The position numbers and the translations under genes were made by a program. From Alistipes sp. (GTDB lineage: Bacteria; Bacteroidota; Bacteroidia; Bacteroidales; Rikenellaceae), in the NCBI GenBank assembly GCA_017398045.1, contig JAFQHI010000025.1:1-64000 (forward strand): 64,000 nucleotides of DNA, read 5' to 3'. Below, piece after piece: positions 15,129 through 16,891 of the stretch (position 1 is its first letter; each line of letters starts with the position of its first letter). The notes below the pieces were generated by a model that saw nothing but the letters and a program-made list of their open reading frames with translations, searched no databases and was not told the DNA's origin.

Positions 15129-16457
15129 TTAGAAGGTCGTAATCGTGCGGCAACGAATCTGTGCGCTCGTGACTGCATAATTGGCCCCCGTATCGGGTTT
15201 CTCAAACAGCACGGCACCCATCATTTTGGTCGAGCTAGTCGGCAAACTCGTTAGCGTAGATGAGGTGTAGCCCGAATCCCAATCGCCCGTCAGGGTAAAC
15301 TGCACACCACCGTTGGCGACCATGGCCGTATTGAGTTGCGGAGCCACGCGAGCCAACACGTGCAACTCGTCCAAGGCAGGAATATACCACACGCTGCTCC
15401 GGTGAGGCATCGGATAGTAGGAGCTATAGGTAGCACCCGAAGCCCAAAGTTGCGCCTTATTATAGAGACCATCCGTGTAGCTCGTGCAGTTGTCGAGGTA
15501 GTTGGAGGTGCCGTAGCCATAGTAGCCCTGATACTCGTCGAGCGAGACGATTTTACCATGCTGACCGGTGGCATCGACCTCATAGACAATACCTTTCACC
15601 GTGCCGTTCTCGTACAAATCGCCCACCTCATAGACGCGGCCATTGGCTGCATAGGTCACAGCAGCGATGCTACTCATCACCGAGCGACGCACCGAAAGGG
15701 TGAAATCGGAGGCCTGCAGGGTCATCGTGTTGCGCTCCGCATCCTGAATCACGAACTTGATTCCCTTGTAGTCGCCCTCCGGCACAGCCAGATAGAACGA
15801 GGTTACGCGGCGCGGCGACAAGGCAGCCGAAAGGCCGGTCAGCGCGACCGTCGATGCGCCCTCGCTGAGGGTGGTCACTACCCCACTTTCGCTCACCTCG
15901 GCCTGCATCGTACCGCTCACGAAATCGCCATCCAAGGCCTCGAAGGTAATCTTCTCGATGGTGGCCGAGCCAAGCAACTGCAAGCGCACAAGACCACACA
16001 AGTTCTTGAACGAGAAGTTCTTGCCATCCTTGCTGTAAGCCGCCATCGGAGCATACTCCAACAGGTAATCGGCTCCCGGGTAGAGCTGTTCTGTAGGCAG
16101 TTCGATGCTCAACTTACCCTCGGCAAATTGGGTCGTGGCCATATAGGGATAATAGGCCACATAGGCACCGGCAGCGAGCGCACCGGTTCCAGAAAAATCG
16201 ACCGACGAACCGCTCTGCGAGGTGGTAAACATCTTATTCGACACGCCGGCACCATAGACACCAATCATATCGCCTGCAACCCACGAGGTTTTGTATCCGT
16301 TGTCGGTAGCCTCGCCCAACGTGGTACGGCTGGCATTGTCAATCGTTGCGTGAATCGTGTAAGGGCTTTGAGCGTCCGACTCAACACCCGTCTCGGAGCA
16401 AGCACCAAAGAAACACAAGAGGCTCGTCATCAGAGCCATAAAGCTAAACTTTTTCAT
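15129..16457 (-). CDS. fimbrillin-like surface lipoprotein
   Basis: A 442-residue SPII lipoprotein (lipobox CFFGAC, Cys20). The N-terminal half looks like the fimbrillin/Mfa fold of Bacteroidota: a short linker, then an ATIDNASRTTLGEA strand and WVAGDMIGVYG, which are hallmark blocks. The C-terminal half is rich in Tyr, Ser and Thr and contains YIPALDELHVLARVAPQLN and a MMGAVLFEKPD block, resembling DUF1566-like or major-paralogous domains. It is the second gene after a 45-codon peptide gene sharing one promoter and a long structured leader. Likely exported to the cell surface; adhesive or structural role is inferred. Confidence 0.75.
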   Translation of the reverse strand: MKKFSFMALMTSLLCFFGACSETGVESDAQSPYTIHATIDNASRTTLGEATDNGYKTSWVAGDMIGVYGAGVSNKMFTTSQSGSSVDFSGTGALAAGAYVAYYPYMATTQFAEGKLSIELPTEQLYPGADYLLEYAPMAAYSKDGKNFSFKNLCGLVRLQLLGSATIEKITFEALDGDFVSGTMQAEVSESGVVTTLSEGASTVALTGLSAALSPRRVTSFYLAVPEGDYKGIKFVIQDAERNTMTLQASDFTLSVRRSVMSSIAAVTYAANGRVYEVGDLYENGTVKGIVYEVDATGQHGKIVSLDEYQGYYGYGTSNYLDNCTSYTDGLYNKAQLWASGATYSSYYPMPHRSSVWYIPALDELHVLARVAPQLNTAMVANGGVQFTLTGDWDSGYTSSTLTSLPTSSTKMMGAVLFEKPDTGANYAVTSAQIRCRTITTF

Positions 16458-16478: not shown

Positions 16479-16616
16479 TTATTGCTCATCCCAATCGGGC
16501 GTTACCTCTTCCTCTTTCCAGTCCTCGGTCGATGCCGCGAATCCGCACTCGACGGAGATTTCCAGCACCTCGTTCATGGGGGCCTCGTAGGCCTCCTTTA
16601 CGTTTTGTCTCTTCAT
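16479..16616 (-). CDS. 45-residue acidic peptide, function unknown
   Basis: ATG at 16616 gives MKRQNVKEAYEAPMNEVLEI and a C-terminal half rich in Glu, Asp and Trp (…FAASTEDWKEEEVTPDWDEQ). There is no signal peptide. The pattern of a YEAP-like motif, an amphipathic strand, Cys34-Gly and a small/acidic tail resembles short peptide genes I have seen near Bacteroidota surface lipoproteins; none has a function known to me. The gene ends 21 bp before the fimbrillin-like gene and starts about 240 nt after the promoter, behind the long hairpin leader. Confidence 0.6.
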   Translation of the reverse strand: MKRQNVKEAYEAPMNEVLEISVECGFAASTEDWKEEEVTPDWDEQ

Positions 16617-16860
16617 TTCTATTGATTGTTTAATGGTTTGCACTCGCCTACAAACAATAAAAAAACGCAGGCTGAACCTATTTATCCGTATCTGAGGCCT
16701 TCGCATTGCCCACCACCAAATAAATGAGTAAAGCCCACGTATGAAACGTGAGCGTCGTGCTTTACTCGTGGTGGTGGTGAAAGTTGCGAAGTTTCAGATA
16801 CCGGAATAAAAGCTAACGCTTTTTATTGTTCATATGTCGTTTCCCCGCAAGGAAACAGCA
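16617..16860 (-). ncRNA. long structured 5' leader: 178-nt imperfect hairpin
   Basis: Left and right arms pair from 16653 to 16830 around the loop ATGAA at 16741-16745. Matching blocks are AACAATAA/TTATTGTT (16653-60 with 16823-30), TATCTGA/TCAGATA (16689-95 with 16794-16800), CTTCGCA/TGCGAAG (16699-705 with 16785-91), CACCACCA/TGGTGGTG (16711-18 with 16772-79), GAGTAAAGC/GCTTTACTC (16726-34 with 16759-67) and CACGT/ACGTG next to the loop. A small GTTTCC/GGAAAC hairpin precedes it. A 6-codon ORF (ATG at 16833, MNNKKR) lies at the 5' foot. Confidence 0.65.
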
Positions 16861-16891
16861 CAAAATTACACTTTTAAGCAGATAATTCAAA
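16861..16891 (-). promoter_or_regulatory. consensus promoter of the hairpin leader/fimbrillin operon
   Basis: On the minus strand TTTG (16891-16888), a 19-bp spacer and TAATTTTG (16868-16861) match the phylum consensus exactly. Transcription would begin near 16855, about 240 nt before the peptide ATG. Confidence 0.75.

Follow-up and report, generated by a model that had tools for sequence, protein, structure and literature searches.

A leader RNA family of Bacteroidota with two mutually exclusive folds and a predicted role in transcription attenuation

The window analysed here (64,000 nucleotides of an Alistipes contig, JAFQHI010000025.1, positions 1 to 64,000) carries a long imperfect hairpin that, as read from its sequence, sits between a promoter motif and a peptide/fimbrillin operon and belongs to a dispersed family of leader RNAs. 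Alignment of the copies supports two mutually exclusive folds, one a long nested hairpin and the other two side-by-side hairpins of which the second abuts a U-run. The comparative evidence for exclusive folds and a terminator-like end is strong. We place the family, as a new one, among RNAs of the attenuator kind, and we predict, with somewhat more confidence than doubt, that the element serves as a transcription attenuator in the 5' leader of its operon. Four strands, in the order a-b-c-d, would pair in two exclusive ways. In fold T (a:b plus c:d) two hairpins would form, the second a GC-rich stem abutting the U-run as in an intrinsic terminator, and transcription would be expected to end there in the cell; in fold N (b:c plus a:d) one long hairpin would break the terminator stem and transcription would continue. 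After read-through, a pseudoknot between strand d and the loop of a further hairpin, P7, could keep d from c. The parts of the window copy and its surroundings, in the direction of transcription, are:

16861..16891, minus strand: promoter motif of the Bacteroides sigma-ABfr kind, TTTG-N19-TAATTTTG, read in the sequence
16839..16856, minus strand: P0, a small 5' hairpin at the predicted transcript start, GUUUCC/GGGGAAAC, from sequence and fold (seen in other copies by eye only)
16651..16835, minus strand: element core matched by covariance model R1 (E 1.5e-24 within its own genome, the copy being among the 30 used for the model)
16813..16833, minus strand: 6-codon leader ORF, MNNKKR*, lying over strand a, read in the sequence
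16816..16830, minus strand: strand a, joined to d in fold N as stem P1 and, through its AGCGUU segment, to b in fold T, from alignment and fold
16778..16796, minus strand: hairpin HA (UGAAA/UUUCA) of fold T, with loop CUUCGCA, which in fold N joins the loop of HB as stem P3, from the alignment
16746..16756, minus strand: strand b, paired with c in fold N (P6) and with a in fold T, from the alignment
16733..16740, minus strand: strand c, ACGUGGGC, paired with b (P6, the read-through fold) or with d (the terminator-like stem), from alignment and sequence
16696..16710, minus strand: hairpin HB (GGC/GCC) of fold T, whose loop pairs with the HA loop in fold N, from the alignment and read in the sequence
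16665..16672, minus strand: strand d, GCCUGCGU, the 3' side of the terminator-like stem, split in fold N between P1 and the pseudoknot, read in the sequence
16659..16665, minus strand: U-run directly 3' of strand d, read in the sequence
16636..16655, minus strand: hairpin P7 (GUUUG/CAAAC), with loop AGGC as pseudoknot partner of GCCU in strand d, read by eye
16479..16616, minus strand: gene for a 45-aa peptide, first of the transcript (an ORF with no NCBIfam match)
15129..16457, minus strand: fimbrillin-like gene (Pfam Mfa_like_1, E 1.6e-5, 25.5 bits)

The predicted RNA fold of 16600-16870 (minus strand) has an energy of -88.2 kcal/mol, compared with -62.0 +/- 4.8 for 200 dinucleotide shuffles, none of which was as good (z -5.41); the long imperfect hairpin proposed in the earlier note is therefore real and far better than chance. 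Its minimum-energy fold is the long nested hairpin, with a basal stem (AACAAUAAAAAGCG / GCGUUUUUUUAUUGUU) in which 16816-16830 pairs with 16653-16668, and the alternative c:d pairing in this copy reads (A)CGUGGGC/GCCUGCG(U). That note's reading of the locus also holds up: on the minus strand the promoter motif (16891-16861) and the MNNKKR ORF (16833-16813) are exactly as described, the first gene start at 16616 agrees with the 45-aa ORF, and from the predicted transcription start the leader would be about 240 nt long. The Mfa_like_1 score of the fimbrillin-like gene (25.5 bits) lies below the curated cut-off of 27, and an NCBIfam search with this gene (15129..16457) returned no match.

A blastn search with 16630-16870 detected matches in 25 of 61 genomes, its own included, where a second match was weak (81% over 47 nt). 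The covariance model R1, built from 30 copies including that of the window (the short matches L003, L004 and L029 being dropped), identified 13 copies in the genome of the window, with E values from 1.5e-24 to 5.2e-6, and copies in 44 of the 61 related genomes, representing 10 of 25 genera, with a maximum of 23 in one genome at the cut-off used there. Across the phylum, at E <= 1e-4, it found copies in 17 of 198 genomes (own included) and 8 of 103 genera, the weakest match (G220, E 4.5e-5) being without a recognised U-run. An exact pattern for a type of approximately 222 nt matched 78 stretches of named contigs, mostly bearing the labels Alistipes, Rikenellaceae or Tidjanibacter and in some cases Bacteroidales, Cryptobacteroides, Muribaculaceae or Bacteroidaceae. 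For family statistics we assembled 142 copies: the 13 of the window's genome, 29 loci from the 61-genome search, and 100 among the matches listed, the latter picked mostly by strength from the top down with some skipped. Copies without a recognised motif or U-run were left out of individual analyses (3 for the pseudoknot, 5 for the c:d stem, 8 each for energy and folding order). In genome G052, 10 of the 17 copies among the matches listed lie at most 650 nt from a contig end, as if beside assembly-breaking repeats, and a copy 74% identical occurs at 1853-2096 of MT838511.1 (L273), an unannotated human fecal contig filed as phage.

Searched against the Rfam 15 covariance models, the window gave no match at gathering score and one chance-level match (E 3.8), and 38 fetched family loci gave none over the element at E <= 0.1 or 0.05. 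The element is not described in the available parts of PMC9723704, PMC8040213, PMC7366714 and PMC10994844. The family thus appears to be undescribed, being absent from Rfam 15 and from the parts of the literature that were searched.

Fold statistics derive from an alignment to R1 of 99 copies of the ~187-nt type, which was fitted to fold N and so favours that fold. In it 90.0% of cells are paired under fold N (42-46% for slid versions), and 1111 cells have changed on both sides, compared with 335.5 in shuffles, a kind of test that kinship among the copies inflates. Stem P3 is 99.3% paired with changes on both sides at 7 of its 7 pairs, and stem P6 (b:c) is 95.9% paired. Conservation and covariation of the stem had been named beforehand as the check on this element; the stem is kept with heavy covariation in related genomes, so the prospect of a hairpin without covariation or conservation falls away.

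Fold T was recognised from a pairing that is not part of model R1: strand d, just 5' of the U-run, is complementary to strand c, the 3' strand of the apical stem. This c:d stem scores at least 14 in 134 of 137 copies, and its mean score of 20.1 drops to 16.3 when d is swapped between copies and to 11.0 when the middle is shuffled; the value that survives swapping indicates that much of the match is shared conserved sequence. On a slightly wider reading the stem is present in 136 of 139 copies, and in 125 of the 139 the U-run follows it immediately (0 nt); it is found in 68 of 69 named copies. In the 18 distant copies from the phylum-wide search, a U-run was recognised in 14, and pairing with strand c was seen in 13 of the 14; the exception, L271, has its best helix elsewhere. 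Double changes between copies include GCGUGGGC/GUCCGCGC, GUGUGGGG/CUCCACAC, UACGCGGGCA/UGCCCGCGUA and CGUGAACUGU/ACGGUUCACG. Over the whole of fold T, 76.2% of cells are paired in the 99 copies (72.7% in shuffles, 42-51% for slid versions), and 268 double changes compare with 167.5 in shuffles, none of 500 shuffles being as high. Its stems are paired in 90.5% (c:d), 90.6% (a:b), 82.5% (HA) and 93.3% (HB) of cells; the weak parts are the GCUUU/AAAGC segment (29.7%) and the inner stems (62-69%). Conservation is highest in columns paired only in T (mean identity 0.743, 13 of 42 at >=90%) and lowest in those paired in neither fold (mean 0.595, 3 of 44 at >=90%), so that much of what looks like conserved loop in fold N is explained by fold T.

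An attenuator should have a terminator-like stem directly before a U-run, as is seen in 134 of 137 copies, and a mutually exclusive antiterminator pairing, as is seen in strand c, which pairs with b in fold N and with d in fold T. Together, stem covariation and the competing terminator-like stem lend support to the earlier suggestion of a cis-regulatory RNA or attenuator. The complementary loops of HA and HB were also considered as a kissing pair within one fold, an idea we dropped because the two-fold model explains these loops without it; a transient HA-HB kissing contact may nevertheless occur.

Downstream of the U-run, the 5' part of strand d finds a second complement in the sequence preceding the gene, often within the P7 hairpin loop. 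This pseudoknot helix scores at least 14 in 59% of 139 copies, compared with 19% when partners are swapped, and its pairs vary between copies (e.g. CGACUCC/GGAGUCG, CAGCUCC/GGAGCUG, CUGUCCC/GGGACAG); the window copy was left out of these statistics by the motif filter, its GCCU/AGGC pairing being read by eye. Its formation requires that transcription has read through the U-run.

The order of folding was followed with an energy model in 134 copies. By the time c is about to be made, hairpin I (a:b) has formed in 98.5%; once c is complete it is paired upstream in 83%, with part of hairpin I still there in 87%; and when the U-run is reached, 99% have c paired with b. On this model alone, hairpin I would form first and then be displaced by b:c. 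When the folds are compared at the U-run, with d left unpaired in N, N is the more stable by a median of 9.9 kcal/mol, and about 4.5% of the 134 copies prefer T. Read-through would consequently be the equilibrium outcome, and termination would need either a delay in the a:b to b:c exchange or a factor. This modelled preference for fold N is the main point against simple default termination.

A possible trigger of the exchange is suggested by short leader ORFs. The sequence GCCUAUG starts an ORF in 50 of 160 copies, always upstream of strand a, and all 50 ORFs stop within 5 codons, start included. They comprise 33 different sequences (e.g. AUGAAAUAG, AUGAUUAAAUAA, AUGUAA), and 88% stop within 4 codons compared with 18.6% of 338 other ATGs in the elements. 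Copies of the 222-type instead place a start codon inside strand a, directly before AAAGUGU (32 of 35 copies have ATG or GTG there; among 70 named copies 46 have ATG and 18 GTG, together 64), and most of the distant copies of family f29 (which we take to be Flavobacteriaceae) have UUG or AUG-AAG-...-UGA over strand a. A stricter test for ORFs of at most 3 codons gave 0.76 against 0.25 in shuffles for the GCCUAUG group and 0.61 against 0.29 (14 of 23 copies) for minimal ORFs in two genomes of other families (G048 and G052); it showed no excess in the 222 group (0.21 against 0.26) or in 35 other copies (0.14 against 0.25), and with a looser limit (<=10 codons) the 58 copies belonging to neither the GCCUAUG nor the 222 group showed none either (0.48 against 0.53). 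A leader ORF of 1-6 codons is therefore a feature of many copies and not of all. We found no regulatory codons matching a downstream pathway, ORFs such as MK, MIK, MKV and MKVY standing before unrelated genes.

A ribosome on a leader ORF that overlies strand a, as in the 222-type, some distant copies and the window, would block a:b pairing and favour read-through. We read the element as an attenuator with a logic of 1:2 plus 3:4 pairing against 2:3 plus 1:4, which may well be coupled to the ribosome. Leader ORFs that sense translation stress are reported for attenuators (PMC12121999). We rank a ribosome on the 1-6-codon leader ORF as the likeliest trigger, an assignment held tentatively, at somewhat less than even confidence, and not as a universal one.

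The placement of the element is that of a leader. A TAnnTTTG motif occurs within 110 nt upstream in 116 of 141 copies, compared with 7% in shuffled upstream DNA and 3% in 137 gene bodies, and precedes all 13 copies in the window's genome. A co-directed ORF, chosen by heuristic, lies 3' of 137 of 142 copies at a median distance of 49 nt; of the 5 copies without one, 2 are within ~300 nt of the end of available sequence. This linkage, and the lack of an Rfam match, speak against the 6S-like RNA that the earlier note had entertained. Clustered by sequence, the proteins encoded downstream (137) give 103 clusters, of which 83 hold a single protein; 92 Pfam families occur among them, the largest with at most 4 members. 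By a crude script, 104 of the 137 have a signal or membrane segment, 43 of these with a lipobox, and the largest cluster (11) consists of lipoproteins, many with a CA[ST]xFCG motif. Other loci include operons of a small peptide and a fimbrillin, a C-5 cytosine methylase, two EcoRI-type methylases and a family-2 glycosyltransferase. Since the downstream proteins are this diverse, the element is best regarded as a general leader; we reject a fimbrillin-specific element, and its earlier description as an element of fimbrillin-like loci was too narrow.

A 38-45-aa peptide with the pattern YxAPxxEVLEIxVExGFAxS is the first gene after the element in the window (16479-16616) and at L053, L135, L166, L187, L234 and L244; these genes precede fimbrillin-like or lipoprotein genes, and four of the peptides gave no NCBIfam match. 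Six copies (L038, L042, L130, L157, L141, L131) stand before DNA-modification or defence-like genes, among them the C-5 cytosine methylase and EcoRI-type methylases identified by Pfam and, by sequence reading alone, N6-methylase-like, HsdR-like and GIY-YIG-like proteins. In the distant f29 genomes (L256, L261, L271 and also L255) the distance from the element to the gene is 190-270 nt; these genes resemble one another and encode exported proteins with an N-terminal part that we name, by sequence reading, carboxypeptidase-regulatory-like.

Other explanations of these data must be weighed against attenuation. A large and well conserved leader RNA in many copies, equipped with a pseudoknot and a second, terminator-like stem, has the usual anatomy of a riboswitch with many target genes. 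The element could on those grounds be an orphan riboswitch, whose long fold would bind some small molecule in wide use among Bacteroidota; by stabilising N (or T), this ligand would control termination. The conservation pattern argues otherwise: with fold T explaining much of the loops, and 3 of 44 columns unpaired in both folds reaching 90% identity (mean 0.595), there is little sign of a ligand pocket, and no pathway is common to the downstream genes (92 Pfam families, none with more than 4 of the 137). We consider a riboswitch unlikely. Slightly less probable again is a family of trans-acting small RNAs, for which an RNA of ~200-240 nt ending at the U-run would be the main product and read-through incidental or secondary. 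Most copies do have their own promoter motif and a terminator-like end, but the co-directed ORF that follows 137 of 142 copies (median 49 nt) counts against this account, as do P7 and the pseudoknot, conserved in many copies beyond the U-run, where a terminated RNA would not need them. A small RNA may still arise as a terminated by-product of attenuation.

The energy model, in preferring the long fold at the U-run, is friendlier to a leader read by a protein, or by a ribosome at the gene start, with the U-run stem terminating little; formation of the pseudoknot only after read-through, shortly before the start codon, also fits. We judge this improbable, since it is difficult to see, unless termination occurs, why the c:d stem should directly abut the U-run (0 nt apart) in 125 of 139 copies. 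A mobile palindromic element spreading between genes, MITE-like, deserves almost no credence. The copies are dispersed and quasi-palindromic (6 antisense matches in an alignment), and similarity drops at the element ends in many within-genome pairs; yet a few such pairs stay similar into the gene like ordinary duplications, and the covariation of both folds, the short leader ORFs and the constant position upstream of genes speak against it. Among 34 copies of the 222-type, mean identity is 0.686 between genomes and 0.691 within them, a near equality that indicates no recent burst. A search of viral contigs with one exact pattern gave 0 matches, and one 222-type copy used as query gave no match to plasmids and two unannotated fecal contigs among 'phage' records. 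On equal identity within and between genomes, placement and covariation we reject a mobile element, and the family appears to be an old dispersed one rather than the product of a recent burst.

Among structured RNAs of the same phylum, those described in Rfam for Bacteroidota include Flavo-1 and Bacteroidales-1. Our family resembles them as a conserved structured RNA of the phylum and differs in that the window and 38 family loci match no Rfam 15 model over the element. Flavo-1 is named in PMC9723704. Candidate structured RNAs of human microbiomes, among them palindromic, terminator-like ones in Bacteroidetes, appear in the available part of PMC8040213, where the element is not described, although an unnamed entry in its supplementary tables is possible.

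The attenuator reading can be extended, doubtfully, to the phylum: ribosome loading on 1-6-codon ORFs, sensing translation, would flip the complete four-strand exchange and set, copy by copy, the expression of many accessory genes in Bacteroidota, for surface and secreted proteins and some for DNA modification. If this is true, an RNA regulator common in gut and other Bacteroidota has no entry in Rfam 15, and it would offer a handle on how their surface lipoproteins and fimbrillin operons are controlled. With its two conserved exclusive folds it would be well suited as a clean test of co-transcriptional strand exchange, and likewise of attenuation through ORFs of 1-6 codons.

In multi-gene leaders of the riboswitch and T-box type, one conserved leader RNA with an alternative terminator serves many genes. 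The family shares all three features, and departs from such leaders in that no conserved unpaired core and no common downstream pathway were found. Ribosome-mediated attenuators (trp type, with a leader ORF) combine a short leader ORF with exclusive pairing of a 1:2 plus 3:4 terminator form and a 2:3 antiterminator. The family has the same exclusive 1:2 plus 3:4 and 2:3 pairing and a short leader ORF, over strand 1 in part of its copies. It differs in that its ORFs are of 1-6 codons without gene-fitting regulatory codons, many copies having no recognised ORF; in that its antiterminated fold would be a complete long hairpin (2:3 plus 1:4) with a pseudoknot; and in that a single family stands before more than 100 gene clusters.
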